Source: Kocuria salsicia (GTDB lineage Bacteria; Actinomycetota; Actinomycetes; Actinomycetales; Micrococcaceae). From it: a stretch of 64,000 bases of DNA. Shown in pieces: positions 39,766 to 55,487 of this stretch (its first letter is position 1; each line of letters begins with the position of its first letter). Where the stretch lies: assembly GCF_007681555.1 (NCBI RefSeq), contig NZ_VELE01000007.1:62001-126000 (forward strand). The letters are read 5' to 3'. The notes below the pieces were generated by a model, which saw nothing but the letters and a program-made list of their open reading frames with translations, ran no database searches and was not told the origin of the DNA. The position numbers and the translations under genes are program-made.

Positions 39766-41301
39766 TCAGCGCGTGCCGGGGCCCCGCCCCTCGCCCTCGG
39801 CGGCACCGTTCCCCACGGCGTCGTGGTGCCCTGCCTCGTCGTCGTGCTCCTCGTTCGAGGGTGTGAGGTCAGGCAGGCCGTTGCGGCGCACGTGGCGTCG
39901 GGAGATCTCGTAGCCGATGTTCGTGGCCACCAGGATCAGCACACCGGCCAGGAGGCTGTAGTACCAGTGGGGGTTGCTGAAGTCGAACATGATGTAGAGG
40001 GAGAGCACCGTGAGGAACACCAGGCACACGTAGTTGGTCACGGGCGCACCGGGCATCTTGAAGTGAACGGGCGCGACCTGCCCGCGGGCGACCTGGCGCC
40101 GGTAGCCCAGGTGGGAGACGAAGATGGAGATCCAACCGAAGAGCACGAAGATTGAGCAGGCGCTGAGCACCACTTCGAACGCGTCCGAGGCGCCCAGCGC
40201 GTAGATCATCACGATGCCGACCAGGTCGAAGCCGAAGATGCACAGCAGCGCCCCCGTGGGCACACCGCGGTGACCCACCGAGGCCATCACCTTGGGCGCC
40301 TGGCCGTGCGCGGAGAGGTTGCGCAGCAGCCGCACGCTCGCGTAGAGGGTCGCGTTCACGCCGGAGATCGCCGCCGTGAGCACCACGAAGTTCATGATCC
40401 CGGCCAGCGCGGGGATGTGCAGGGAGGCGAGCGCGGTGACGAACGGGGACTCGTCTCCGGAGTACTCGTCCGTGGGCAGCAGCATGGAAAGCACCAGGAT
40501 GGAGCCGACGTAGAACAGGGCGATGCGCAGCACCACGGAGTTGATGGCCTTGGGCATGGACTTCTCCGGGTCCTTGGCCTCGCCCGCGGACACGCCCACG
40601 ATCTCGATCGCGGAGAAGGAGAAGACCACGCCGGTCATCACGACCACCAGCACGAGCACTCCCCGTGTGGCGAAGCCGCCGCTCCACAGGTTGGTGACCG
40701 ACGCCGCGGTGGGGGCGTGGAAGATGTCACCGGCGACCACCAGGACGAGGCCCGCCGCCAGGAAAAGCAGGATCGCGAGCACCTTGACCATGGCCGCCCA
40801 CGTCTCGATGAACCCGTAGAGCTTCACGCTGAGCAGGTTGCAGCCCACGATCGTCATCGCCGCGACCAGGGACGGGATCCATCCCGGGATCTCTGGCCAC
40901 CAGAACTGCACGTACACCGCGAGCGCGGCGATCTCGCCCACCCCGGCCACGGCGGAGAGCGCTACATAGATCCACCCCGTCATGAACGCGAAGCGGTCGC
41001 CCACGAACTCGCGCGCGTAGGAGACCCACGCGCCCGTGGTGGGGCGGTGGATCACGAGCTCCCCCAGGGCGCGCATGAGCAGGTACACCACGGCGGAGAC
41101 CACCAGGTAGGAGACGACCAGCGCGGGGCCCGCCGCCGCGAGGCGCCCGCCGATGCCCAGGAACAGACCCACGCCGATGGCACCACCGATGCCGATCATC
41201 TGGATCTGGAAGTGGCCCAGGGACTTCTTGTACCCCTGGTCCCCCCTCTCGTGGAAAACGGGCATGGGGCCGGTGGCCGGGGCCTGTGGATCGAAGGGCA
41301 T
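39766..41301 (-). CDS. Amino acid permease, APC superfamily
   Basis: A 511-aa transporter with about 12 transmembrane helices. The start FQIQMIGIGGAIGVGLFLGIGG and the motif FSFSAIEIVGVSAGEAKDPEKSMP are typical of the AAT/APC group (GabP, CycA, AnsP and relatives). Substrate uncertain: GABA, proline, aromatic or D-amino acids are all possible. ATG 41301 has AGGAG upstream. It is divergent from the amidohydrolase gene, with a 358-bp control region between. The C-terminal 40 residues are acidic and His-rich. Confidence 0.87.
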   Translation of the reverse strand: MPFDPQAPATGPMPVFHERGDQGYKKSLGHFQIQMIGIGGAIGVGLFLGIGGRLAAAGPALVVSYLVVSAVVYLLMRALGELVIHRPTTGAWVSYAREFVGDRFAFMTGWIYVALSAVAGVGEIAALAVYVQFWWPEIPGWIPSLVAAMTIVGCNLLSVKLYGFIETWAAMVKVLAILLFLAAGLVLVVAGDIFHAPTAASVTNLWSGGFATRGVLVLVVVMTGVVFSFSAIEIVGVSAGEAKDPEKSMPKAINSVVLRIALFYVGSILVLSMLLPTDEYSGDESPFVTALASLHIPALAGIMNFVVLTAAISGVNATLYASVRLLRNLSAHGQAPKVMASVGHRGVPTGALLCIFGFDLVGIVMIYALGASDAFEVVLSACSIFVLFGWISIFVSHLGYRRQVARGQVAPVHFKMPGAPVTNYVCLVFLTVLSLYIMFDFSNPHWYYSLLAGVLILVATNIGYEISRRHVRRNGLPDLTPSNEEHDDEAGHHDAVGNGAAEGEGRGPGTR

Positions 41302-41659
41302 GGTGTTCTCCTGCTGTGCGAGGTGGGGCACATCCGCGCGAGAGGCCAGTGGCCCGTCCACACCCCGGGGCGGGGGTGGCCGATGCCGTTGCCTCGAGGG
41401 TAGTCGCCGCGCGGGGGGCGACCCCGGCTTGCGTCAGCCCCTCCCGGGCGCGGGCCGGGTGAGCGGGCCGGGGGCCGCGCGTGGTCACCGGTCACGGTCG
41501 GTCGCCGCCGGGTCACGGCCCGTCATGGCCCGTGACGTCGCGTGACACGGGGCACACCCGCGCGAGACGATGGGCGGACTCGCCCGCTCGCCCGAGCACG
41601 ACGTCGTGCCCGGAACCCGGTGCGCGGACCACGCACACGACCCCGAGGACGGCACCACC
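41302..41659. promoter_or_regulatory. Divergent control region, permease / amidohydrolase
   Basis: No gene. It holds five GTCAC/GTGAC half-sites at 41484-41488, 41491-41495, 41512-41516, 41532-41536 and 41542-41546. The pair GTCACGG (41512-41518) and CCGTGAC (41530-41536) forms a perfect inverted repeat with an 11-base spacer. This could be an operator for a regulator of the two transcription units; the regulator is not evident in the window. Confidence 0.4.
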
Positions 41660-43381
41660 ATGGCACTCGACGTGATCTTCACGAACGGCTCCATCCACAC
41701 GCAGGACCCCGGGCACCCCCTGGTGCACGCGCTGGGGGTGCACGGCGGCAGGATCGTGAGCGTGGACGAGCAGCTGCCCCGTGAGGCCTTCGACCGAGTG
41801 GTGAACCTGCGCGGCGCCACGGTGGTCCCGGGCTTCCACGACGCGCACTGCCACCTGAGTCTGCTCGGCGAGGCGCTCGTGCAGGTGGACGTGAGCCCGC
41901 GGGCTGCGCCCACCATGGCGGAGCTGCTGGAGCGGATCGGCGCGGCCGCGCGAGACTCGGAGCCGGGCGAGTGGGTCATGGGCCAGGGCTACGACCAGAA
42001 CTACCTGGACGGCCACCACCCGCTGGCTGTGGAGCTGGACGCCGTGGCCCCGCTGAACCCTGTGTGGCTGTGGCACAACTCGCGCCACATGGCGGTAGCG
42101 AACTCGGCCGCCTTCGCGGTGGCCGGCTACCCGGGGCGCGCCGGCTTCACCGTCCCGGAGGGCGGCCGCGTCCCGCTGGACGACGACGGCTCGGCACAGG
42201 GCCTGCTCGAGGAGACCGCCCGCGCGCTGGTCTCGGACCACCTCCCGGCCAAGACCACGCGCGTGGTGGCCGAGCAGATCGGGGCCGCGGGCGACGTCGC
42301 CGTGGCCGCGGGAATCACGTCCATCACCGAACCGGGGCTCGGGGCCCCCGCGCACCTGGGCCAGTCCCCCACGGACATCGCCGCCTACCAGCTCGCCCGG
42401 GACGAGGGGCTGCTGCGCGTGCGCGCCACCGTGATGCCCTACCTCACAACCCTGCACCCCGTGGACCCCACCGGGCTCACGGTGGCCGAGCCGTACCCGC
42501 ACGAGGGCCAGGGGTTCGGACTGGATCTCGGCATCCGCTCCGGGATGGGCGACGAGTGGTTGCGCATCGGCGCGGTCAAGGTGCTCTCGGACGGCTCGCT
42601 GATCGGGCGCTCCGCGCTGATGACGGTGGGCTACGAGCCCGAGACCTCCCCCGCGGACGACGCTCTGTCCGCGGAGGGCGAGCCCCACTCCTGCGCCGCG
42701 GAGGAGAACCTCGGATACCTGCAGTTCCCCCGCGAGTGGCTCGAGGCCCGACTCGTGGCCGCCCACGAGAACGGCTGGCAGCTGGCCGTCCACGCCATCG
42801 GCGACGGCGCCGTGGACGTGGTCCTGGACATCATCGAGGAGGCCCAGCGCCGGTTCCCGCGCGAGGACTGCCGCCACCGCATCGAGCACTTCGGAGTGGC
42901 CAGCGAGGAGCAGGTGGCACGCGCGGCGTCGCTCGGCGTGGTCCCCGTGCCGCAGGGCAGGTTCGTCAACGAGCTCGGCGATGGCATGGCCCGTGCGCTC
43001 GGGCCCGAGCGCACCCGGTTCTGCTACCGCATGAAGTCCCTGCTGGAGGCAGGCATGACGGTGCCCGCCTCCACGGACGCGCCCATCGTGGACTACCCGC
43101 CGCTGTCCAACATCCACGACATGGTCAACCGCCGCACCGCCTCCGGAGCAGACTTCGTCCCGGAGGAGCGCATCACCGTGGACGAGGCGCTGCACGCCTA
43201 CTCCGTGGCCAGTGCGCAGGCCTCCCACCAGGAGCACGAGAAGGGATCCCTGAGCGTGGGCAAGCTCGCGGACTTCGTGGTGCTCTCCGAGGACATCTAC
43301 GCGGTGGACCCCACGAGCATCAAGGACATCGGGGTCACCGCCACGGTGATCGGTGGCGAGGTGGTCCACGGGAGCCTGTGA
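41660..43381 (+). CDS. Amidohydrolase, YtcJ / Amidohydro_3 type (A)
   Basis: A 573-aa metal-dependent hydrolase. Metal ligands are seen in GFHDAHCHLSLLG (H63, H65), AVHAIGDGAVDVV, HRIEHFG and STDAPIVDYPP; KVLSDGSLIGRSA holds another likely ligand region. Family members include N-substituted formamide deformylase and enzymes of unknown substrate. I chose ATG 41660, preceded by GAGGA; the frame is open further upstream but lacks conserved sequence. It opens a three-gene run with a ThDP enzyme and a second amidohydrolase. Only about 30-35% similar by eye to the second one, so not a recent duplication. Confidence 0.85.
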   Translation: MALDVIFTNGSIHTQDPGHPLVHALGVHGGRIVSVDEQLPREAFDRVVNLRGATVVPGFHDAHCHLSLLGEALVQVDVSPRAAPTMAELLERIGAAARDSEPGEWVMGQGYDQNYLDGHHPLAVELDAVAPLNPVWLWHNSRHMAVANSAAFAVAGYPGRAGFTVPEGGRVPLDDDGSAQGLLEETARALVSDHLPAKTTRVVAEQIGAAGDVAVAAGITSITEPGLGAPAHLGQSPTDIAAYQLARDEGLLRVRATVMPYLTTLHPVDPTGLTVAEPYPHEGQGFGLDLGIRSGMGDEWLRIGAVKVLSDGSLIGRSALMTVGYEPETSPADDALSAEGEPHSCAAEENLGYLQFPREWLEARLVAAHENGWQLAVHAIGDGAVDVVLDIIEEAQRRFPREDCRHRIEHFGVASEEQVARAASLGVVPVPQGRFVNELGDGMARALGPERTRFCYRMKSLLEAGMTVPASTDAPIVDYPPLSNIHDMVNRRTASGADFVPEERITVDEALHAYSVASAQASHQEHEKGSLSVGKLADFVVLSEDIYAVDPTSIKDIGVTATVIGGEVVHGSL

Positions 43382-43644
43382 GCGCACGCGCCGTCGACCA
43401 CACGCACCGGCGGCCGCACGCACCGCCCACCGCTCCCGCCGTCGACCGATCACGCCGCGGGGTCCGCCCGGGACGGCCCGCGGGCCGTGCGCACCCGACG
43501 GCGCACGTGCGGACCGCGCCGATCTCGACGGCGCGGCGGTAGGCTCACGGGACCACCGCCCACGTGGCGCGGGTCACCCCGGCCACCCCGGGTGACCGGG
43601 ACCGCGAGCATCCCGGGCCCCCGCCAGGACACACAGGAGTAGAC

Positions 43645-45291
43645 ATGCCCGAGCAGTCGGCCGGCCACCTGATCGTCGAGTCCCTCGAGGCCCACGGCGT
43701 GGACCGCGTGTTCACCGTGCCCGGGGAGAGCTTCCTGGACGTGCTGGACGGGCTCCACGACTCGTCCGTGCAGAACGTGGTGTGCCGCCAGGAGGGCGGG
43801 GTGACCTACATGGCGGAGGCCCACGGCAAGCTGACCGGCCGCCCGGGCGTGGCCATGGTGACCCGCGGACCGGGCGCGTCCAACGCGTTCGTGGGCGTGC
43901 ACCTCGCGTGGCAGGACTCCACTCCCCTGGTGCTCTTCGTGGGCCTGGTGCCCGTGGCGCACCGGGAGAAGGAGGCTTTCCAGGAGTTCGACCCGCACCA
44001 GTGGTTCGGCTCCCAGGCCAAGCGGGTGATGGTCCTGGACGACCCGGACCGGGCCTCCGAGTACGTGGCGGAGGCGTTCTTCGCCGCGAGCTCCGGGCGC
44101 CCCGGCCCCGTGGTGGTGGGACTGCCGGAGGACGTCATCACCCAGCGCACGGACGCCCCCGTGGTCCCGCCGCTGCCCGTGGCCGAGGGCGCGGTCTCCG
44201 CGGAGGAGCTCTCCGAGCTGGCAGCCGCACTGGAGACGGCCGAACGGCCGGCCATCATGCTCGGCGGGCCGCGGTGGACCCCCGAGGCCGCCGCGCTGGT
44301 CACCGGCTTCGCGGAGCGCCACGGCATCCCCGTGGTCTCCGACTGGCGCGCCGGGGACAGGATCCGCACCGACTCCCCCGTGGCCGTGGGCGAGCTCGGC
44401 TACAGCCGCACCGAGGACACCGTGCGTGTGCTCACGGAAGCGGACCTGCTGCTGGTGGTGGGCACCACCCTCTCGGACATCCCCACCGACGGCTTCACGC
44501 TGCGCCAGCAGCACTCGGCACGCAACTGGGTGGTCAACGTGGACGCCGGGCTGCGCCAGCACTCCGGGGCGGTGACCCGGCACATCCTGGCGAGCCCCGT
44601 GGCCTTCGGGAGCGCCGTCGCCGGCATGGAACTCGGTGAGCACCCCGACTGGACGGACTGGCTCGAACCCGCCGCCAACGCGCACCGCGAGCACATGCGC
44701 ATCCCGTCGTCCGCCGGGAACAACGCTCCCGGGACCGCGGACATGGAGCTGGTGGTGAAGGCGCTGCTGCCCCACCTGCCCGAGGACACCGCCGTGACCA
44801 CCGGCTCGGGCAACCACACCGCGTGGGCGCAGCGCTACGTGCCCAAGGGCGGCTACCCGTGCCACTTCTCGGTGCGCAACGGGACCATGGGCTACTCCGT
44901 GCCCTCCGCCGTCGCCGTCTCCCTGGCCCAACCCGAGCGCTTCGTGCTCTCGGTCTCCGGGGACGGCGAGTTCCTCATGAACTCGCAGGAGCTCGCCACC
45001 GCGGTGCAGTACGGCGCGCGCCCGCTGATCGTGGTTGTGGACAACGGCCAGTACGGAACCATCCGTGCGCACCAGGAGCGCCACTACCCCGGCCGGGTCT
45101 CCGGCACGCAGCTGTGCAACCCGGACTTCGCCGCAGTGGCCCGCGGCTACGGGGCGCACGGTGCGCGGCTGGAGCGCAACGAGGACATCGAGGGCGTCAT
45201 CGCCGACGCCGTGCGCGCCGTCACCGAGGACCGGGTCCCGGCCGTGGTGCACGTGGTCGCGGACCCGGCGAAGCTGCTGCCCGGCATGTAG
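43645..45291 (+). CDS. ThDP-dependent enzyme (acetolactate synthase / 2-oxoacid decarboxylase superfamily)
   Basis: A 548-aa enzyme using thiamine diphosphate. The catalytic Glu50 lies in CRQEGGVTYMAEA; the ThDP/Mg site is SGDGEFLMNS at about 438-447 and DNGQYGTIRAHQ some 25 residues later. The three-domain layout (Pyr, central, PP) is complete. Candidates are acetolactate synthase-like, sulfoacetaldehyde acetyltransferase-like, or a 2-oxoacid decarboxylase such as 5-guanidino-2-oxopentanoate decarboxylase. It is not the ilvB housekeeping enzyme, since no ilvN or ilvC is adjacent. ATG 43645 follows AGGAG. Flanked by amidohydrolase genes on the same strand. Confidence 0.85.
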   Translation: MPEQSAGHLIVESLEAHGVDRVFTVPGESFLDVLDGLHDSSVQNVVCRQEGGVTYMAEAHGKLTGRPGVAMVTRGPGASNAFVGVHLAWQDSTPLVLFVGLVPVAHREKEAFQEFDPHQWFGSQAKRVMVLDDPDRASEYVAEAFFAASSGRPGPVVVGLPEDVITQRTDAPVVPPLPVAEGAVSAEELSELAAALETAERPAIMLGGPRWTPEAAALVTGFAERHGIPVVSDWRAGDRIRTDSPVAVGELGYSRTEDTVRVLTEADLLLVVGTTLSDIPTDGFTLRQQHSARNWVVNVDAGLRQHSGAVTRHILASPVAFGSAVAGMELGEHPDWTDWLEPAANAHREHMRIPSSAGNNAPGTADMELVVKALLPHLPEDTAVTTGSGNHTAWAQRYVPKGGYPCHFSVRNGTMGYSVPSAVAVSLAQPERFVLSVSGDGEFLMNSQELATAVQYGARPLIVVVDNGQYGTIRAHQERHYPGRVSGTQLCNPDFAAVARGYGAHGARLERNEDIEGVIADAVRAVTEDRVPAVVHVVADPAKLLPGM

Positions 45292-45414
45292 CTGTCCCCG
45301 CAACGGCGGCGTACCGCACCCCTCGGGTCTGCGACGGGGTCGCCGTAGGGTGGTCCGTGACGATCGGCGGCCACCAGCCGCTGCCGTGCTCGGCGCACCA
45401 CGAGGAGTCCCACC

Positions 45415-47043
45415 ATGCACCGCCTGTTCCACAACGCCACGGTCCACGCCATGAACCCGGCCACCGGCTGGACGCCCCAGGGCCAGTGGCAGTCCCACAG
45501 CATGGCGCACCCGAACGCGCTGCTGACCTCCGGGGACCGCATCCTGGCCGTGGGCGACTACCGCGAGCTGAAGGACCAGGCGCCGCTGGGCACGGAGCGC
45601 ACGGACCTGGGCGGTGGGTTCGTGATGCCGGGCATGGGGGACGGCCACATCCACTCCGCCATGTACTCCCGCTCGCTCATCGAGCCGGACATGCGCCACT
45701 GCACGGACCTGGACTCCGCGCTGGCGGTCCTGCGCCCGTTCGTGGAGCGGGCCATGGCGGACGAGTCGATCACCTGGATCTTCGGCGGGCAGTGGAACAT
45801 CAACGCGTGGACCACCACCGAGCTGCCGGACCGCCATGTCCTGGACACCGTGGCCCCGGACATTCCCGTGGCCCTGAGCTCCCTGGACCTGCACACCCTG
45901 TGGCTGAACTCGAAGGCGCTGCAGGAGCTCGGCCTGGACCGCACCGTGAAGGACCCGGACGGCGGCGAGTTCGAGCGCTACGAGGACGGCGAGCTCACGG
46001 GTGTGCTGCGCGAGGCCGCGGCCATCCCCATCCGGGACGGGCTCATGCAGTCGGACGTGTCCGGGGACATCGACAGCTACCTCCCCCTCGGGCAGCGCGA
46101 GCTGCTGAAGCGCGGCATCACGTCCATCCACGACATCGACGGCGTGGACTGCCTCCACGCCTACCGCAAGCTCCGCGAGCGCGGTGAGCTGGACATCCGC
46201 GTGCACAAGATCCTGCGCCAGGAGCAGATCCACGAGTTCATCCGCCGCGGGATCCGCACGGGCGCCGGTGACGAGTGGATCTCCATGGGCCCCCTCAAAC
46301 TCTTCGCGGACGGCGCCCTGGGCTCCCACACGTGCCACATGTCCGAGCCGTGGCCCGGCACCCAGGACCACGGGATGAGCGTCATGGAGCCCGCTGAGCT
46401 CGACCACTGGATCCACCTGGCCGCCGCGGCGGGGATCGCCTCGGCGGTGCACGCGATCGGGGACCAGGCCGCCAGCGAGGCCCTCGACGCCATCGCCACC
46501 ACCAGCTCCATCTCCCGCGCGTTCGGGCTGCGCCACCGCATCGAGCACGCGCAGTACATCAAGCGCGGGGACGTCCCCCGGCTGCGGGAGCTCGGGGTCA
46601 CCGCGTCCATGCAGCCCGTGCACTGCACCTCGGACATGCCCATGAACGGCTTCCTGGAGGGCCGGGACCTCGTGGCCTACGGGTGGAACAGTCTGCGCGC
46701 GGCCGGAGCCGAGCTCGTCTTCGGCTCGGACGCCCCGGTGGAGGACCCCAACCCGTTTTACGGCATCCACGCCGCCATCACCCGCACCCGCGACGGGCTC
46801 CCCGAGGGCGGCTGGCAGCCCCACGAGACCATCACGCGCCCCGAGGCCGTGGACTACTACACCCACGCCGTGGCCCGCGCCTCCTACGAGGAGAACCTCA
46901 AGGGCTGCCTCGCCCCCGGGATGCTCGCGGACTTCGTGTGCGTGGACCGGGACGTCTTCGCCGAGGACGCGCAGGCCGTGCGGGACACCGCGGTGCGCAC
47001 CACCGTGGTGGGCGCCCAGATCCGCTACCAGCGCGAGGACTGA
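45415..47043 (+). CDS. Amidohydrolase, YtcJ / Amidohydro_3 type (B)
   Basis: A 542-aa metal-dependent hydrolase. Ligand motifs are MPGMGDGHIHSAM (H78, H80), KLFADGALGSHTC, HAIGDQAASEALDAI, RHRIEHAQYI and GSDAPVEDPNPF. ATG 45415 follows GAGGAG. It lies 123 bp after the ThDP gene on the same strand. A probable hairpin terminator at 47068-47093 follows the stop. The substrate cannot be told; see the cluster hypothesis in the findings. Confidence 0.85.
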   Translation: MHRLFHNATVHAMNPATGWTPQGQWQSHSMAHPNALLTSGDRILAVGDYRELKDQAPLGTERTDLGGGFVMPGMGDGHIHSAMYSRSLIEPDMRHCTDLDSALAVLRPFVERAMADESITWIFGGQWNINAWTTTELPDRHVLDTVAPDIPVALSSLDLHTLWLNSKALQELGLDRTVKDPDGGEFERYEDGELTGVLREAAAIPIRDGLMQSDVSGDIDSYLPLGQRELLKRGITSIHDIDGVDCLHAYRKLRERGELDIRVHKILRQEQIHEFIRRGIRTGAGDEWISMGPLKLFADGALGSHTCHMSEPWPGTQDHGMSVMEPAELDHWIHLAAAAGIASAVHAIGDQAASEALDAIATTSSISRAFGLRHRIEHAQYIKRGDVPRLRELGVTASMQPVHCTSDMPMNGFLEGRDLVAYGWNSLRAAGAELVFGSDAPVEDPNPFYGIHAAITRTRDGLPEGGWQPHETITRPEAVDYYTHAVARASYEENLKGCLAPGMLADFVCVDRDVFAEDAQAVRDTAVRTTVVGAQIRYQRED

Positions 47044-47067
47044 GGCGGGCGCGGAGACCGCGCCGGT

Positions 47068-47093
47068 CGGCGTCGTCCTCGGAGGCGACGCCG
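47068..47093 (+). terminator. Probable terminator of amidohydrolase B
   Basis: An 8-bp GC stem (47068-47075 with 47086-47093) with a 10-base loop, 25 bp after the stop codon. Confidence 0.5.
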
Positions 47094-47234
47094 CCCGCTC
47101 GCCGTACGCGGCGACGTCGCCCGCGCACGGCACAGAGCGATGTCGCCCGCCTTCCGCGCGGGGGCTCAGTGCCGGACATGGCCGGGCAGTCAGGCGCTCA
47201 GCTGCAGGCGTCGCACCCGCACGTCGGCCGGCGG

Positions 47235-47408
47235 TCAGCCACAGTGCCGGGCCGATGACGGGCCGCCAGTGTCAACAGCAGCTGCTGAGCGGGCGTGCGC
47301 GGCCTTGTTCTTCGCGGGCGTCCAGATCGCCACGAGCCACAGGACCGCGGCTACCGCACCCAGGGCGAACATGAACTGGGCGATCGGTGACGGAACGAGC
47401 GGGTTCAT
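47235..47408 (-). CDS. Small membrane protein (57 aa)
   Basis: A short gene easily overlooked. ATG 47408 is preceded by a perfect GGAGG at five bases. The peptide begins MNPLVPSPIAQFMFALGA and has one transmembrane helix at about residues 8-30, then WTPAKNKAAHAR and a short hydrophilic tail. Similar tiny MNPL-starting membrane proteins occur in actinobacteria, but I know no function. It is on the strand of the aldehyde dehydrogenase gene, downstream of it and separated by a strong terminator, so it needs its own promoter. An overlapping 60-codon frame (47272-47454) looks non-coding. Confidence 0.65.
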   Translation of the reverse strand: MNPLVPSPIAQFMFALGAVAAVLWLVAIWTPAKNKAAHARSAAAVDTGGPSSARHCG

Positions 47409-47480
47409 GGGGCCCTCCGGGGTTCGTTGGCCCGTGACACGAGGCGTCTTTCACGGCGAGATCCTCGTCCCGCCAGAATG

Positions 47481-47522
47481 CGACGACGCCCCCGCACCTA
47501 CCACGGTGCGGGGGCGTCGTCG
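47481..47522 (-). terminator. Terminator of the aldehyde dehydrogenase gene
   Basis: A 17-18 bp near-perfect GC stem (47481-47498 with 47505-47522) with a 6-base loop, 10 bp after the stop codon. Confidence 0.85.
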
Positions 47523-47531
47523 ACCGGGGCC

Positions 47532-48911
47532 CTACTTCTTCTTGGGCGTGTGGATCAGCTTCTTGTTGGCGAACTCCTCGATGCCGAACGGGCCGAGCTC
47601 ACGGCCCACGCCGGAGCGCTTGACGCCGCCGAAGGGCAGGTCCGGGGCCGTGTCAGTGACGGCGTTGACGAAGACCATGCCGGAGTCCACGCGCTGCGCG
47701 ACCTCCAGGGCCGCGGCCTCGTCCGCGCCGAACACGGAGCCGCCCAGGCCGAACGGCGAGGAGTTGGCGAGCTCCACAGCCTCGTCCACGTCCTTGACCT
47801 TGTAGACCACGGCCACGGGACCGAAGATCTCTTCCGCGTACGCACGCATCTCGGGGGTGACGTCCGCGAGCAGGGTGGGTTCGATCCAGGCGCCCGGCTT
47901 GTCGGGCTTTCCGCCACCGGCCAGCACGGTGGCGCCCTTGGCCACGGCGTCCTGGACCTGCTCCATGATCTCGTCCCGGGCACCCACGGTGCTCACCGGG
48001 CCCACGAAGGTCTTCTCATCCGTGGGATCCCCCGGGGTGATGCCCTGCACGGCCTGCGCGAAGTTCTCCACGAACGTGTCGTAGGCGTCCTCCAGCACGA
48101 TGAAGCGCTTGGAGTTCGTGCAGGCCTGGCCGCTGTTGCTCATGCGCCCGGAGACCGCCTGCTTCACGGTGCGCTCCACGTTGGAGTCGTCCAGCACGAT
48201 GAACGGGTCCGAGCCGCCCAGCTCCAGCACAACCTTCTTGAGGTTCTTGCCGGCGGTGGCCGCGACGGACGCGCCCGCCCGCTCCGAACCGGTCAGGGAC
48301 ACGCCCTGCACCGCCGGATCCGGGATGATGATCTCCGCGACCTGGTCGTTGGACGCGAACACGTTGATGTAAACGTCCTCGGGGAAGCCCGCCTCGTGGA
48401 AGAGCTGCTCCTGCACGAGCGCGGACTGCGGGACATTGCCCGCGTGCTTGAGGATGACCGTGTTGCCCAGCATCACGTTCGGGGCCGCGAACCGCGCCAC
48501 CTGGTAGTAGGGGAAGTTCCACGGCATGATCCCCAGCAGCACGCCCGTGGAGTCCAGCACCACGCGAGCCTCCCCGCCCGTGGACGGGTTGAGGGTGCGG
48601 CCCTTCATGAACTCCTCCGCGTTGTCCGCGTAGTAGTCGTAGATCGCGGCCGCGATCTGCACCTCACCGGCGGCTTGCTGGGCGGGCTTGCCCATCTCCA
48701 GTGTGATCAGAGCGGCCAGCTCGTCCTGGCGCTCGCGGTAGAGCTCGGCCATGCGGTGCATCATGGCGGCGCGCTCCGCCACCGGCACGTTGCGCCAGCT
48801 CTTGTACTCCTCGGCGGAGCGGGCGACGGTGTCGCGCACCTCCTGGTCCGAGGCGGTCTCGAATTCCTTGACGGTTTCCCCTGTGGCGGGGTTGATCGTT
48901 GCGTAAGCCAT
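47532..48911 (-). CDS. NAD(P)-dependent aldehyde dehydrogenase (succinate-semialdehyde dehydrogenase-like)
   Basis: A 459-aa aldehyde dehydrogenase. Catalytic Cys264 is in GQACTNSKRF, and general base Glu230 in LELGGSDPF; GIMPWNFPYYQVARFAAP is the NAD-site stretch. Overall it resembles the shorter SSADH group (GabD2/Sad type). It is divergent from the second SSADH gene at 49223. The C-terminus ends in Lys-rich TPKKK. Its exact aldehyde is unknown; with the ThDP enzyme nearby it could oxidise the aldehyde made there. Confidence 0.88.
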   Translation of the reverse strand: MAYATINPATGETVKEFETASDQEVRDTVARSAEEYKSWRNVPVAERAAMMHRMAELYRERQDELAALITLEMGKPAQQAAGEVQIAAAIYDYYADNAEEFMKGRTLNPSTGGEARVVLDSTGVLLGIMPWNFPYYQVARFAAPNVMLGNTVILKHAGNVPQSALVQEQLFHEAGFPEDVYINVFASNDQVAEIIIPDPAVQGVSLTGSERAGASVAATAGKNLKKVVLELGGSDPFIVLDDSNVERTVKQAVSGRMSNSGQACTNSKRFIVLEDAYDTFVENFAQAVQGITPGDPTDEKTFVGPVSTVGARDEIMEQVQDAVAKGATVLAGGGKPDKPGAWIEPTLLADVTPEMRAYAEEIFGPVAVVYKVKDVDEAVELANSSPFGLGGSVFGADEAAALEVAQRVDSGMVFVNAVTDTAPDLPFGGVKRSGVGRELGPFGIEEFANKKLIHTPKKK

Positions 48912-49222: not shown

Positions 49223-50698
49223 TTGAGCATCAAGGACAAGGTGTCAGAGGTTCTCGACGCCACCCCCAAGGGACTGCTGATCAACGGCGAGTGGCGCGAC
49301 GCCTCGGACGGCGGGACGTTCGACGTCGAGAACCCCGCGACCGGCGAGGTGCTCGCGACCCTGGCCTCGGCCACGGAGGACGACTCTCGCGCGGCCATGG
49401 ACGCCGCCGCGGACGCCCAGGAGTCCTGGGCCCGCACCAGCACCCGCGAGCGCTCCGAGATCCTGCGCCGAGCGTTCGACCTCGTGCAGGAGCACAAGGA
49501 CGACCTCGCGCTGCTGATGACCCTGGAGATGGGCAAGCCCTTCAAGGAGGCCCAGGGGGAGGTCGTCTACGGCGGCGAGTTCCTGCGCTGGTTCTCCGAG
49601 GAGGCCGTGCGCCACTACGGCCGCTACGCGTCCACCCCCGAGGGCAACCTCAAGATGATCGTGACCCACAAGCCCGTGGGCCCGTGCCTGCTGATCACCC
49701 CGTGGAACTTCCCGCTGGCCATGGCCACGCGCAAGGTCGCGCCCGCCGTCGCCGCCGGGTGCACCATGATCCTCAAGCCCGCGCGCCTGACCCCGCTGAC
49801 CTCCCAGTTCTTCGCGAAGCTCATGGTCGAGGCTGGCCTGCCCGACGGTGTGCTCAACGTCGTCTCCTCGGCCTCCGCGTCCAACGTGTCCGGGCCCATC
49901 ATGGCGGACCCGCGGCTGCGCAAGGTCTCCTTCACGGGCTCCACCCCCGTGGGCAAGCAGCTCATGAAGACTGCCACGGACCACGTGCTGCGCACCTCCA
50001 TGGAGCTGGGCGGCAACGGTCCGTTCATCGTCTTCGAGGACGCGGACCTGGACAAGGCCGTGGACGGCGCCATGGCCGCCAAGATGCGCAACATGGGCGA
50101 GGCCTGCACCGCGGCCAACCGCTTCCTGGTGCACGAGTCCGTGGCTGAGGAGTTCTCGCAGAAGTTCGCCGCAAAGCTCGCCGCGCTCAAGCCCGGCAAC
50201 GGCCTGGACGAGGACTCCACCGTGGGCCCCCTGGTGGAGAAGAAGGCCCGCGACAGCGTGGCCGAGTTCGTGCAGGACGCCCTGGACAAGGGCGCGAAGG
50301 CGGAGGTCGGTGGCAAGGCCGTGGACGGCCCCGGCTACTTCTTCGAGCCCACCCTGCTCACCGGCGTGACCGAGGAGTGCCGCGTGTTCACCGAGGAGAT
50401 CTTCGGTCCCGTGGCTCCCGTCATCACGTTCACGGACGAGGACGACGCCGTGCGCCTGGCCAACAAGACCGAGTACGGCCTGGCCTCCTACGTCTTCACT
50501 GAGGACATCTCCCGCGCGCTGCGCATCGGCGAGCGCATCGAGTACGGCCTGCTGGGCCTGAACGTGGGTGTGATCTCCAACGCCGCTGCACCGTTCGGCG
50601 GCGTGAAGGAGTCCGGCCTGGGCCGGGAGGGCGGCGCCGAGGGCATCGAGGAGTACACCACGGTCCAGTACATGGGCCTGCCCTCTCCCTGGGCCTGA
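49223..50698 (+). CDS. gabD: Succinate-semialdehyde dehydrogenase
   Basis: Oxidises succinic semialdehyde to succinate, the last step of GABA breakdown. The 491-aa product has catalytic Cys295 in MGEACTAANRF and Glu261 in MELGGNGPF; LITPWNFPLAMATRKVAPA and TSQFFAKLMVEAGLP are typical of GabD. The start is TTG 49223, with AAAGGAACGAG upstream; no ATG is suitably placed. It is followed 44 bp later by gabT and then a permease, so the assignment is backed by context. Confidence 0.93.
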   Translation: MSIKDKVSEVLDATPKGLLINGEWRDASDGGTFDVENPATGEVLATLASATEDDSRAAMDAAADAQESWARTSTRERSEILRRAFDLVQEHKDDLALLMTLEMGKPFKEAQGEVVYGGEFLRWFSEEAVRHYGRYASTPEGNLKMIVTHKPVGPCLLITPWNFPLAMATRKVAPAVAAGCTMILKPARLTPLTSQFFAKLMVEAGLPDGVLNVVSSASASNVSGPIMADPRLRKVSFTGSTPVGKQLMKTATDHVLRTSMELGGNGPFIVFEDADLDKAVDGAMAAKMRNMGEACTAANRFLVHESVAEEFSQKFAAKLAALKPGNGLDEDSTVGPLVEKKARDSVAEFVQDALDKGAKAEVGGKAVDGPGYFFEPTLLTGVTEECRVFTEEIFGPVAPVITFTDEDDAVRLANKTEYGLASYVFTEDISRALRIGERIEYGLLGLNVGVISNAAAPFGGVKESGLGREGGAEGIEEYTTVQYMGLPSPWA

Positions 50699-50742
50699 TC
50701 CGCCCTCTCCGCACGAGCACCCTGCACGAAAGGAACACCCAC

Positions 50743-52086
50743 ATGGCAGACATCGAGTACCGGCTCCCTCAGAAGCGCGAGCTCAAGACCAGCATCCCCG
50801 GCCCCAAGTCCCAGGCGCTGACGGAACGCCGCAAGAAGGCCGTCTCGGCTGGCGTCGCCTCCTCCCTGCCCGTCTTCGCGGACGAGCTGGACGGCGGCGT
50901 GATCCGGGACGTGGACGGCAACCAGCTCGTGGACCTCGGCTCCGGCATCGCCGTGACCTCCGTGGGTGCCTCCGCACCCAAGGTGGTCTCGCGCGTGCAG
51001 GACGCCGTGGCCAAGTTCACGCACACGTGCTTCATGGTCACCCCGTACGAGGACTACGTGAGCGTGGGCGAGAAGATCGCCGCGCTGACCCCCGGCTCGT
51101 TCGAAAAGCGCACCGCGCTGTTCACCTCCGGCTCCGAAGCCGTGGAGAACGCCGTGAAGATCGCGCGGGTGCACACGAAGCGTCAGGCAGTGGTCGTCTT
51201 CGACCACGCCTACCACGGCCGCACGAACCTCACGATGGCCATGACCGCCAAGGTGATGCCCTACAAGCAGGGCTTCGGACCGTTCGCCAACGAGGTCTAC
51301 CGCGTTCCCATGTCCTACCCGTTCCGGGATCCGGAGGGCATGACGGGCGAGGAGGCCGCCCGCCGCGCGCTGGGCATCGTGGAGAAACAGGTGGGCGCGG
51401 AGAACGTGGCCGCCGTGGTCATTGAGCCCATCCAGGGTGAGGGCGGCTTCATCGTCCCCGCCGAGGGCTTCCTGCCCGCGCTGTCCTCCTGGTGCCGGGA
51501 CAACGGCGCCGTGTTCGTGGCGGACGAGGTGCAGGCCGGCGTGGCCCGCGCGGGCCGCTGGTTCGCGTCTGAGTACGAGGGCGTGGAGCCGGACCTGGTG
51601 ACCTTCGCCAAGGGCATCGCCGGCGGCATGCCGCTGTCCGGCGTGGTGGGCCGTGCCGAGATCATGGACGCCGTGCACGGCGGTGGCCTGGGCGGCACCT
51701 ACGGCGGCAACCCCGTGGCCTGCGCGGCCGCGCTGGGCGCCCTGGAGACCATCGAGGAGTGGGACCTCGTGGACCGCGCGCTCGAGATCGAGTCGATCAT
51801 CAAGGAGGAGCTCGGCTCCCTCGCCGAGTCCTCCCCGATCGTGGGCGAGCTGCGCGGACGCGGCGCGATGATTGCGCTGGAGTTCGTGGAGCCCGGTTCC
51901 AAGGACCCGAACCCGGAGGCGGCCAAGCAGATCGCGGCCACCTGCCTCGAGAAGGGTGTAGCCATTCTGACCTGCGGCACCTACGGCAACATTGTGCGCC
52001 TGCTGCCCCCGCTGGTCATCGACTTCGACCTGCTGCGCGACGGCCTGCGCGTCTTCGCCAAGGCCATCGAGGATGCCGGCGCCTGA
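50743..52086 (+). CDS. gabT: 4-aminobutyrate aminotransferase
   Basis: PLP-dependent class III transaminase moving the amino group of GABA to 2-oxoglutarate, giving succinic semialdehyde. The 447-aa product has the PLP lysine Lys290 in VTFAKGIAGGMPL, the cofactor aspartate in FVADEVQAGVARAG, and the phosphate-binding GSEAVENAVK. ATG 50743 follows GAAAGGAA. Operon with gabD upstream; a strong hairpin ends it before the permease. Confidence 0.94.
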   Translation: MADIEYRLPQKRELKTSIPGPKSQALTERRKKAVSAGVASSLPVFADELDGGVIRDVDGNQLVDLGSGIAVTSVGASAPKVVSRVQDAVAKFTHTCFMVTPYEDYVSVGEKIAALTPGSFEKRTALFTSGSEAVENAVKIARVHTKRQAVVVFDHAYHGRTNLTMAMTAKVMPYKQGFGPFANEVYRVPMSYPFRDPEGMTGEEAARRALGIVEKQVGAENVAAVVIEPIQGEGGFIVPAEGFLPALSSWCRDNGAVFVADEVQAGVARAGRWFASEYEGVEPDLVTFAKGIAGGMPLSGVVGRAEIMDAVHGGGLGGTYGGNPVACAAALGALETIEEWDLVDRALEIESIIKEELGSLAESSPIVGELRGRGAMIALEFVEPGSKDPNPEAAKQIAATCLEKGVAILTCGTYGNIVRLLPPLVIDFDLLRDGLRVFAKAIEDAGA

Positions 52087-52408
52087 TCCCGAGGATCTGA
52101 CGCCACGCGCTCCACGAGGAGCGTCCCCAGCGGGCGGGCGGTGACCGGTTCTCCGGTTGCTGCCCGCCCGTTCGTCCTCCGCCCGCTCTTCCTCGGTTCC
52201 GACGACGACGCCGCGCCGCGCCTTTGCTGCCTCGGCTCCGCAGCACGCAGTACGGGGATGTGGAGGTGCGGAGGCCGCGCACGAAACACCCCTGTCACAC
52301 CGTCTGTGGTAGAACTCACCTGTCCCACCCGGAACCTGCCGCCCGCACTCAGCATCAGGCACCGGCCCGTTCCACCCTGCACCCGGCCGACGGCCGAAAG
52401 GAACTCTG
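52087..52408. other. gabT terminator and permease promoter region
   Basis: A spacer of 322 bp without a gene. The first part holds the hairpin listed separately. The second part may hold a promoter: a -10 like TAGAAC lies near 52308-52313, leaving a leader of about 90 bases before the permease. Confidence 0.4.
52131..52170 (+). terminator. Terminator of gabD-gabT
   Basis: An 18-bp stem with three G-U pairs (52131-52148 with 52153-52170) and a four-base loop, about 45 bp past the gabT stop. Confidence 0.8.
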
Positions 52409-53893
52409 ATGAGCAACGACGGCGCACCGCACGGCGGCGCACCCTCCGGCAGCTCCGCGGCCACCACGGCCACTGCGGCCGGCGGAGACTCCCCCGAGAT
52501 CACCCACAAGGCCCTGCGATCACGCCACGTCACCATGATCACGCTGGGCGGGATCATCGGCGCGAGCCTGTTCGTGGGCTCCGGCAACGTGATCCGCATG
52601 GTCGGACCGGCCGCAGTGCTGTCCTACCTGCTGGGCGGGCTGCTCGTGTTCCTGGCCATGCGGATGCTCGGCGAGATGGCCGCCGCCCGGCCGGCCGTGG
52701 GCTCCTTCATGGAGTACGCGCGCGTGGGCCTCGGGGAATGGGCCGGCTACTTCGTGGGATGGCTCTACTGGTACTTCTGGGTGGGTGTGATCGCGTTCGA
52801 GGCCGTGGTGGGTGGATCGCTGCTCGCGGGGTGGTTCCCAGCCATGCCCGTGTGGCTGGGCTCCGTGATCCTGCTGCTGATCTTCACGGGCACCAACCTG
52901 ATCTCCGTGCGCTCGTTCGGGGAAGTGGAGTTCTGGCTCGCGAGCGTCAAGGTGGCGGTGATCGTCGCGTTCCTCGCCGTGGGGACCCTCTTCGCGTTCG
53001 GGCTGTGGCCCGGCGCCGGCTTCTCGATCCCGAACCTGTGGCAGCACGGCGGCTTCGCCCCTGAGGGTGGCTGGGCCGTAGTCTCAGGCGTGGCCGTGGT
53101 GATCTTCTCCTACTTCGGCACGGAGATCGCCGTGATGGCCGCCGCGGAGTCCGAGGACCCCGCCAAGGGCATCCGCCAGGCCACCGTGACCGTGGTGTGG
53201 CGCATCCTGATCTTCTTCGTGGGCTCCATCCTGCTGATCGTGACCATCGTGCCGTGGAACCAGCTTCCGGACCCGGACGAGCAGGCACCGTTCGTGTACG
53301 TCTTCGACCTCTTCGGGGTGCCCGGCGCGGAGACGATCATGAGCATCGTCATCTTCACCGCAGTGTGCTCCGTGCTGAACTCCGGGCTGTATTCCGCAGC
53401 GCGCATGTTCTCCGCTCTCGCGGCGGAAGGACTGGCTCCGCGCATCGTGGCACGGAAGTCCAAGAACGGCGTTCCCGTGGTCGCCGTGATTGCCTCCACC
53501 CTGGGCGGATATGCGGCGGTGTTCGTGAACTTCCTGGCCCCGGAGTCCGGGATCTTCGACTTCATCATGAACTCTGCGGGTCTCGTGGCTCTGTTCGTGT
53601 ACGTGTTCGTGGCGATCACCCAGATGAAGCTGCGCTCGCGGATGAGCCCCGAGGAGCGCGCCAACCTCAAGCTGAAGATATGGCTGCACCCGTGGCTCGG
53701 CATCCTGGTGATCGTGGCCGTCGCGGGGATCGTGGTGGTCATGCTGGTCTCGGACGACGCGAGCCGCACCCAGGTGTGGACGAGCCTCGTGGCCGTCGGT
53801 GTGCTGGCCGTGTTCTGGCCGCTCGTGCGCCGCAACCTGCGACGCCGCCGGACACCCAGAGCCGCGGCTCCCGCCACGACGCCCACGGCCTGA
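52409..53893 (+). CDS. gabP: Amino acid permease, probable GABA permease
   Basis: A 494-aa APC-superfamily transporter with about 12 helices. It starts with RHVTMITLGGIIGASLFVGSG and carries FSYFGTEIAVMAAAESEDP, typical for the GabP/AAT group. Its place right after gabD-gabT makes GABA the likely substrate, though the substrate is not proven by sequence. ATG 52409 follows AAAGGAA. The N-terminal 30 residues are Ala/Gly/Thr-rich. The following amidase starts 37 bp later. Confidence 0.85.
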   Translation: MSNDGAPHGGAPSGSSAATTATAAGGDSPEITHKALRSRHVTMITLGGIIGASLFVGSGNVIRMVGPAAVLSYLLGGLLVFLAMRMLGEMAAARPAVGSFMEYARVGLGEWAGYFVGWLYWYFWVGVIAFEAVVGGSLLAGWFPAMPVWLGSVILLLIFTGTNLISVRSFGEVEFWLASVKVAVIVAFLAVGTLFAFGLWPGAGFSIPNLWQHGGFAPEGGWAVVSGVAVVIFSYFGTEIAVMAAAESEDPAKGIRQATVTVVWRILIFFVGSILLIVTIVPWNQLPDPDEQAPFVYVFDLFGVPGAETIMSIVIFTAVCSVLNSGLYSAARMFSALAAEGLAPRIVARKSKNGVPVVAVIASTLGGYAAVFVNFLAPESGIFDFIMNSAGLVALFVYVFVAITQMKLRSRMSPEERANLKLKIWLHPWLGILVIVAVAGIVVVMLVSDDASRTQVWTSLVAVGVLAVFWPLVRRNLRRRRTPRAAAPATTPTA

Positions 53894-53930
53894 TCCACCA
53901 CCGTCCACCGACCGTGCGCGAGAGGATCCC

Positions 53931-55487
53931 ATGGAGCACTTCCCCACCCTGACCGAGACCGTGGCGGCGCTGCGCCGCGGTGAGACGACCAGCGAGGCAC
54001 TCACCTCGGACGCCCTGGACCGCATCGACGCGCTGAACGGGCATCTGGGGGCGTTCGTCCACGTGGCGCGGGATGCGGCAGTGGTCAGCGCCCGCGCCGC
54101 GGACGAGAGGCTGTCCGCGGGCCAGCGCCCGGCCGACGCAGTCCGAGGCGGGACCGGCCGTGCCTCGGACGCCCCCGGTGGGTTGACCACCCTGCCCGCG
54201 CTGCTGGGGGTTCCCACCGCGCTCAAGGACGGGCACGACGTCGCCGGGATGCCCACCTCCTGGGGCAGCCTCGCATCGCGGGACGGGCACGGTGATCTGG
54301 CCCGCGCTCAGCGTTCCGACGAGCTCTCCGGGACGCTCGAGGCCGCCGGGGCCGTGATCCTGGGCAAGACGCAGGTGCCAGAGTTCCTGCTCAACAGCTA
54401 TTCCGAGAACCGCATGTACCCGGCGGCACGCAACCCGTTCGCCCTGGACTGCTCCCCCGGTGGATCGTCCGGGGGTCAGGCCGCGACGGTCGCGGCGGGG
54501 ATCCTGCCGGGCGCGATCGGCTCGGACGGCGGCGGCTCCGTGCGCATCCCCGCCGCGGCGTGCGGTCTCATCGGGCTGAAGCCCAACCGCGGTCGGGTCC
54601 CCAGCAGCGACGCGCTCTCCAACGTGGGGCAGCTGGGCGTGAACGGGCCGATTGCCCGCACCGCTGAGGACGCCGCCCTGCTCATGGACGTGCTGTGCCG
54701 CACCCCCGGCCACGACCGGATCCCGCGGCCCGTGGCGGCAGCACCTGAGAACTCCTTCCGCGACGTCGTCCGCGCCGCCCACCGCGGAGACACGCCCTGG
54801 GGCGAGCGGCCCCTGCGGATCGGCGTGACCACGCAGTCCCCGTTCGACGGCACCTACGACGTGCAGGTCTCCCCCGAGGCGCGCACCGCCCTGGAGCGGG
54901 GCGTGCGGCAGCTCGAGGATCTCGGGCACACGGTGGAGACTGTGGACCTCGGATTCGATCCCGCCTACCCCGAGGCTTTTTCCGCCCTGTGGACCACCGC
55001 CACGGGCCAGCTGCCCCTGGAGGGCCGGGAGCACCTGCTCACCGGACTCGCGCGCACGTTCCGCGCCCGCGCCCTGCAGCGAGGGGCCGTGGAGCTCGCG
55101 GACGCCGTGGCCGTGCTGCGCGGCATCGAGGCGGACGTGATCCGGCGGTTCGCGGACCTGGACATGCTCCTGACGCCCGCGCTGGCCATGCCGCCCCGGC
55201 CCGTGGGGTGGTTCCACGAGGGGTACGACATCGCGGACCCCGCTGGGGCGGACCAGGACTACGAGCGCCAGTGCCAGTACACGCCGTGGACGTCCGTGGT
55301 GAACGTGGTGGGACTGCCTGCCATCACGTACCCCACCACGTGGGCCGTTCCCGCCACGGGCGACTACCCGGGCCCCGTGCCCATGGGCGTCCAGCTGATC
55401 GGCGGACCGTCCTCGGAGGCCCGGCTGCTCGCGCTCGTCGCCCAGCTGGACCCGGCGACGACGCCGCGCGCGCACCTCGTCGCCTGA
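53931..55487 (+). CDS. Amidase (amidase-signature family)
   Basis: A 518-aa hydrolase of the amidase-signature family. The Ser-cisSer-Lys triad is visible as Lys99 (TALKDG), Ser179 in [11 protein letters not shown] and Ser203 in [13 protein letters not shown]. Substrate unknown: the context with GABA uptake suggests an amide of a short amino or carboxylic acid, but this is a guess. It is not GatA, since gatB and gatC are absent and the glutaminase context is missing. ATG 53931 sits 10 bases after GAGAGGA. It has an extra loop at about 65-88 compared with typical members. Confidence 0.87.

Follow-up and report, generated by a model that had tools for sequence, protein, structure and literature searches.

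What do five neighbouring genes in the genome of Kocuria salsicia do, and do they act together? The window, a 64,000-nucleotide stretch of contig NZ_VELE01000007.1 (positions 62,001 to 126,000), is GC-rich actinobacterial DNA from a genome of 3.06 Mb. It carries genes for an APC-family permease, a YtcJ-type amidohydrolase (AHA), a thiamine diphosphate (ThDP)-dependent enzyme, a second YtcJ-type amidohydrolase (AHB) and an aldehyde dehydrogenase (ALDH), next to gabD-gabT-gabP and an amidase. A sequence-only reading had proposed the five as a catabolic cluster. Using a simple purpose-made gene caller cross-checked by tblastn, we find all five present, intact, close to where they had been placed and in the families named; third-position GC is 0.94-0.98 in each of these coding-like open reading frames, and the ratio of nonsynonymous to synonymous divergence (dN/dS), compared between Kocuria species, is well below 1 for all genes. 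We give about even chances to the view that the AHA-ThDP core, with or without the ALDH, forms a catabolic module, conserved among actinobacteria, for an amide-bearing amino-acid derivative, working by hydrolysis, transamination, decarboxylation and aldehyde oxidation.

The pairing of AHA with the ThDP gene supports this view. Across 197 Micrococcaceae genomes, at least 33 of 102 AHA relatives have a ThDP gene of NCBIfam subfamily PRK08199 within 6 kb, where 0.47 would be expected, and at least 22 of 80 GTDB loci with AHA have a ThDP gene beside it, these adjacency counts being lower bounds drawn from related genomes that are not independent. An aldehyde dehydrogenase is often present as well at the GTDB loci with the pair, which span about ten genera: Kocuria, Arthrobacter, Microlunatus, Streptomyces, Leucobacter, Paenarthrobacter, Paeniglutamicibacter, Cryobacterium, Brevibacterium and Specibacter. 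The neighbourhood search that the sequence-only reading had called for thus finds the pair recurring far above chance and outside this strain.

The ThDP enzyme (domains PF02776, PF00205 and PF02775) passes a single NCBIfam model, that of PRK08199 (598.4 bits, cut-off 539), a subfamily without an assigned function. Its scores reach about half of the cut-off or less for the acetolactate synthase model TIGR00118 (IlvB; 292 bits against 538, the genome's own IlvB scoring 755), for PRK07524 (AruI; 206.7 against 500) and for TIGR03457 (Xsc; 204 against 676). In a FastTree tree that includes the genome's own ThDP enzymes, three PRK08199 groups, A, B and C, fall together with rhizobial members (support 0.75; 1.0 for A with B, 0.99 for A) and are separated from IlvB, Pox and AruI-type enzymes. 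Group A holds the window enzyme, other Kocuria and several other genera, group B is a paralogue found in most Micrococcaceae, and groups B and C likewise score above the PRK08199 cut-off. The catalytic Glu is retained. At the position of Trp464, which we take to be a diagnostic residue of acetohydroxyacid synthase (AHAS), the alignment has His in all aligned PRK08199 members and Trp in the genome's own IlvB. Score, this His and the position in the tree rule out an anabolic acetolactate synthase, the placement that would have undone the original proposal; a glyoxylate carboligase is rejected, by inference, because the catalytic Glu is present.

A catabolic carboligase resembling acetolactate synthase (ALS), which would condense a keto acid with a second one or with an aldehyde, is an unlikely alternative for the same enzyme. 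The fold nearest to its AlphaFold model (pLDDT 86.2) and its nearest sequences are catabolic acetolactate synthases at ~30% identity, and its Gln and Met active-site positions are common to the AHAS/ALS type; however, ALS models reach only about half of their cut-offs, His replaces Trp464 throughout the subfamily, and the gene is followed by one for an aldehyde dehydrogenase, not an acetolactate decarboxylase. Elsewhere in PRK08199, the members on rhizobial plasmids are distant and lie with hydantoinase genes, with no AHA among their annotated neighbours; in two such loci (L080, L081) the neighbours are hydantoinase A/B, an aminotransferase, an NAD(P)-dependent oxidoreductase and an FAD oxidoreductase. 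A ThDP gene of another subfamily, PRK08266, adjoins an APC permease, a HisC-like aminotransferase and an Lrp-type regulator in a similar plan (L200, G000:C44:78000-92000).

Two layouts recur around the core. In group A, an MHS transporter and a LysR regulator are followed by AHA-ThDP-ALDH; in group C, a PucR-type regulator and an MHS transporter accompany ThDP, ALDH in some loci, AHA and, beside AHA, an M20 hydrolase of the carbamoylase/allantoate type. ThDP is directly followed by ALDH in both groups, with ALDHs of two different subfamilies, that of group C belonging to the aminobutyraldehyde dehydrogenase subfamily. The window ALDH is nearest to PRK09406, an NADP-dependent succinic semialdehyde dehydrogenase (SSADH), at 523 bits below a cut-off of 730, and reaches 379.5 bits with TIGR01780 (cut-off 646); in several other genera a homologue 54-58% identical comes immediately after ThDP. 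In Arthrobacter locus L104, an APC gene and an aminotransferase gene lie within ~7 kb of the ALDH. A urease gene pair directly precedes AHA-MHS-ThDP-ALDH in Streptomyces sp. NBC_01446 (L103, 8299-14747), and in three Arthrobacter loci (L185, L186, L187) AHA is directly followed by the SSADH-like ALDH, with no ThDP gene, beside a sugar-type ABC transporter.

The window ALDH also matches the group of solved SSADH structures that includes 4it9 and 3vz1-3, and in cyanobacteria a ThDP-dependent 2-oxoglutarate decarboxylase is coupled with SSADH (PMC10418658). A shunt of this kind would parallel the ThDP-ALDH pairing but leaves the two amidohydrolases, the permease and the M20 hydrolases of relatives unexplained, and we regard it as very unlikely.

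Both amidohydrolases are of the YtcJ type, with PF07969 scores of 305 and 277 bits and the complete metal-ligand pattern HxH, K, H, H, D (H63, H65, K307, H378, H410 and D473 in AHA; H78, H80, K295, H346, H378 and D439 in AHB). Because characterised YtcJ-like enzymes, an epsilon-lysine acylase (PMC10699109) and a metallo bile salt hydrolase (PMC13081902), cut N-acyl bonds, a substrate class with an N-acyl bond is supported for AHA and AHB, though no single substrate is named. Our search found no close characterised relative of either; by Foldseek the AHA model (pLDDT 91.9) is nearest to PDB entries 3igh and 3icj, themselves uncharacterised and of unknown function, and for AHA and the ThDP enzyme alike the models gave the fold class without a hint of substrate. 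An AHB homologue (50% identity) adjoins AHA-ThDP-ALDH in Arthrobacter (L084, L104), and several loci outside Kocuria have a second YtcJ gene (L049, L051, L084, L104). A third YtcJ amidohydrolase in the same genome (L058, G000:C47:41000-60000) adjoins an MHS transporter and a gene of the choline/carnitine O-acyltransferase family (PF00755), unusual for a bacterium, with an amine oxidase and an ALDH close by.

No trace of an aminotransferase was found in the window, and its relatives show where one had been. Kocuria G198 has a divergent APC gene, then AHA-ThDP-aminotransferase-AHB-AHB, then Lrp, ALDH, permease, gabD and gabT, the aminotransferase (PF00155) lying between ThDP and AHB. In a second copy of the locus in Kocuria genome G005 (L044), APC and AHA-ThDP-aminotransferase are followed by Lrp and MHS. 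Genomes G185 and G083 have lost AHA-ThDP and retain an aminotransferase remnant in broken frames along with AHB, Lrp, ALDH, gabD and gabT, a pattern that agrees with an upstream half that can be lost while the downstream half persists. Because the gene is present in G198 and the second G005 copy and survives as remnants in G185 and G083, it is most likely that the ancestral system included a transaminase step; the earlier statement that no such transaminase is present holds for the window and not for the locus in its relatives.

That statement had accompanied an analogy with the arginine transaminase pathway. Taken literally, the window ThDP enzyme would be a 5-guanidino-2-oxopentanoate decarboxylase, with an amidohydrolase replacing guanidinobutyrase. 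Relatives do have an aminotransferase, a ThDP enzyme and an ALDH in the same layout, the group C ALDH belongs to the aminobutyraldehyde dehydrogenase subfamily, urease adjoins a Streptomyces locus, and in Microlunatus (L086) AHA-ThDP has an agmatinase-type ureohydrolase nearby. The enzyme's ~207 bits to PRK07524 fall far short of 500, however, and the AruI-type enzymes branch as a clade of their own and differ in their active-site residues. Moreover, the genome has its own AruI-like ThDP gene (436 bits to PRK07524) on contig C49, with an agmatinase-type ureohydrolase, an MppQ/LysN-like aminotransferase and an SSF transporter (L199, G000:C49:66000-85000). With this separate locus the window enzyme is not required for an arginine route, and we reject that route for the window, rating it as highly improbable. 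As a likeness of overall plan, the analogy gains from the aminotransferase of the ancestral Kocuria cluster, which decays in two species; the accompanying claim that guanidinobutyrase is missing stands for the cluster, since ureohydrolases of that type occur in this genome only on C49 and C47.

An aminotransferase and an amino acid permease at the locus would also suit an Ehrlich-type breakdown of aromatic or branched amino acids, or of their N-acyl forms, in which the ThDP enzyme would be an arylpyruvate decarboxylase and the ALDH would yield an arylacetate. In four loci of Micrococcaceae (L073, L075, L076, L077) the group B sister enzyme (~52% identical) has paaI-paaK-paaR and paaZ-like genes for neighbours, and the genome has a phenylacetate-CoA ligase homologue. 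Yet the paa linkage belongs to group B, not group A, and to some genera only; an IPDC-like decarboxylase is already present in the genome, and the ALDH is SSADH-like, not StyD-like. We think this breakdown improbable here, and note separately that the paa neighbourhood hints at arylpyruvate chemistry for group B.

How much of the grouping is older than the module? Among 27 Kocuria genomes, the gene orders serS-dagK-pheA and gabD-gabT-amidase are commonly shared, and some genomes add pgm, the permease and the ALDH. Because this gab synteny exists in Kocuria without AHA or ThDP, the best reading of the block from APC to Lrp is that it was inserted next to a gab locus already in place. It could be argued that chance and synteny explain everything, unrelated genes having come to lie near gab: gabD, gabT, the amidase and pgm, with the permease and the ALDH, do form an older Kocuria synteny without AHA-ThDP. 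AHA-ThDP, ThDP-ALDH and two-YtcJ combinations recur, however, in other genera away from gab, so that this explanation, a slim prospect as a whole, is largely refuted for AHA-ThDP-ALDH and stands for gab and the amidase. Compared with G161 (L042), the segment 39766-52086 is a mosaic: pheA and gabT are 100% identical (gabT synonymous divergence, dS, 0.009), and ThDP is only 80% identical (dS 0.40). This mosaic divergence suggests that recombination replaced the AHA-ThDP-AHB-ALDH segment.

Several observations weigh against a shared catabolic module. The window lacks an aminotransferase, the closest one in the genome being 41% identical and at the arginine-type locus. In Streptomyces, among others, AHA can have MHS and LysR as its only companions, and it therefore need not work with ThDP; AHA-ALDH occurs without ThDP in some Arthrobacter, and ThDP-ALDH without AHA in some relatives. 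In Kocuria genomes G196 and G209 the run ALDH-permease-gabD-gabT-amidase occurs at a locus with neither AHA nor ThDP, which makes some of the grouping a matter of older synteny. The fold of the ThDP enzyme is nearest to acetolactate synthase, a point in favour of carboligation, so that decarboxylation is its presumed reaction. The gab genes are a separate matter: no linkage between the module and gab is seen in other genera, and we reject these genes as part of a conserved module there.

The genes themselves (Table 1) form several transcription units: APC on the minus strand, AHA-ThDP-AHB on the plus strand, ALDH on the minus strand and facing them, and gabD-gabT-gabP on the plus strand, where the amidase and pgm also lie downstream. 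The genes are close together, as had been noted, but being divided between the strands they are not one operon. Likely starts are 41301 for APC, 41660 for AHA and 43645 for ThDP, and gabD-gabT-gabP-amidase spans 49223-55487; the amidase frame as called overlaps gabP, and its true start is probably near 53931. The top NCBIfam score of the APC permease is to L-asparagine permease, under the cut-off, and its orthologue is divergent from AHA in every Kocuria locus with an intact AHA. GabT scores 584.6 bits to TIGR00700, above the cut-off of 506.65, as a 4-aminobutyrate (GABA) transaminase.

Table 1. Features of the locus, in window coordinates.
Feature	Position	Strand	Basis
APC-family amino acid permease (AA_permease, PF00324)	39766..41301	-	Pfam and NCBIfam
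Intergenic region between divergent APC and AHA; likely control region, judging from gene orientation	41302..41659	.	
AHA, YtcJ-type metal-dependent amidohydrolase (Amidohydro_3)	41660..43381	+	PF07969, metal ligands
ThDP-dependent enzyme, NCBIfam PRK08199, group A	43645..45291	+	NCBIfam score, tree
AHB, second YtcJ-type amidohydrolase	45415..47043	+	PF07969, metal ligands
ALDH, aldehyde dehydrogenase (Aldedh, PF00171)	47532..48911	-	Pfam and NCBIfam
gabD-like succinate semialdehyde dehydrogenase; older neighbour that may supply a downstream step	49223..50698	+	
gabT, 4-aminobutyrate transaminase; older neighbour that may supply a downstream step	50743..52086	+	TIGR00700, genus synteny
gabP-like GABA/amino acid permease; neighbour	52409..53893	+	
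Amidase-signature family amidase; older neighbour	53799..55487	+	PF01425; genus-wide synteny with pgm

What is observed directly is which genes are present, that they are conserved, where the ThDP enzyme falls among the subfamilies, the retained metal ligands and catalytic Glu, and the aminotransferase of relatives; from this we infer the reactions, substrate class, direction of flow and GABA link of a possible pathway. The permease, APC here and an MHS-type MFS transporter elsewhere, would import an N-acylated, carbamoylated or cyclic-amide amino acid derivative, and a YtcJ amidohydrolase would cut the amide. The aminotransferase, part of the ancestral Kocuria operon and lost from this strain's locus, would form a 2-oxo acid, which the ThDP enzyme would decarboxylate to an aldehyde and the ALDH would oxidise to an acid. 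In Kocuria alone, where the block appears to have been inserted beside gabD-gabT, what results may be an omega-amino acid feeding into the GABA shunt, and AHB might be an amide hydrolase working after the oxidation step. Of the sequence-only reading, the proposal of a catabolic cluster is supported, as a conserved and apparently undescribed module; the flow that it sketched (import, amide or formamide hydrolysis, decarboxylation, oxidation) stays conditional in its formamide and decarboxylation parts, and the entry into GABA and succinate with which it ended is plausible for Kocuria only, gab and the amidase being old Kocuria synteny outside the conserved module. This GABA link is suggestive and may be partly incidental.

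More specifically, and as a doubtful possibility, the module could serve a so far undescribed pathway that degrades diamino acids blocked at the omega nitrogen, for example N-delta-acetylornithine or N-epsilon-acyllysine. With an N-acyl group in place the keto acid would not cyclise; the aminotransferase, ThDP enzyme and ALDH would then give 4-acylaminobutyrate or 5-acylaminovalerate, from which a YtcJ amidohydrolase would free GABA or 5-aminovalerate for gabT and gabD to complete, and such a substrate would explain these two genes as end steps. Group C might be a carbamoyl, citrulline-like version working through the M20 carbamoylase. The omega-N-acyl reading resembles the N-acetyl-lysine route.

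Two large groups that lack functional assignments, the PRK08199 ThDP enzymes and the YtcJ amidohydrolases, are here linked with one another and with an ALDH, and in some members with an aminotransferase. This restricts the chemistry to the hydrolysis of an amide in connection with a 2-oxo acid step, from which a small, testable substrate panel follows; if the module were confirmed, two enzyme groups now called hypothetical in many Actinobacteria could be named.

Set beside known systems, the module has partial counterparts; as the sequence-only reading had supposed, no pathway with this gene set was found described in the open-access literature. It has the overall plan of the arginine transaminase pathway (AruH-AruI-KauB-GbuA) in its aminotransferase, ThDP-dependent 2-oxo acid enzyme, ALDH and gabT/gabD entry, but its ThDP enzyme is of PRK08199 and not PRK07524, and two YtcJ amidohydrolases stand in for the ureohydrolase. 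With the cyanobacterial 2-oxoglutarate decarboxylase and SSADH it shares a ThDP enzyme paired with an SSADH-like ALDH, there without amidohydrolases or a permease. Group C, with its amidohydrolase, M20 carbamoylase/allantoate-type hydrolase and MFS transporter, is like the hydantoinase and N-carbamoylase system (HyuH/HyuC), from which it differs in its YtcJ-type amidohydrolase and the added ThDP enzyme and ALDH; the window cluster has no M20 gene. AHA and AHB have their Pfam family and metal-ligand pattern in common with the YtcJ-like set of N-substituted formamide deformylase, epsilon-lysine acylase (PMC10699109) and the metallo bile salt hydrolase (PMC13081902). Within PRK08199, of which the window enzyme is a member by score, group A branches as a clade of its own, in which AHA is a conserved neighbour.

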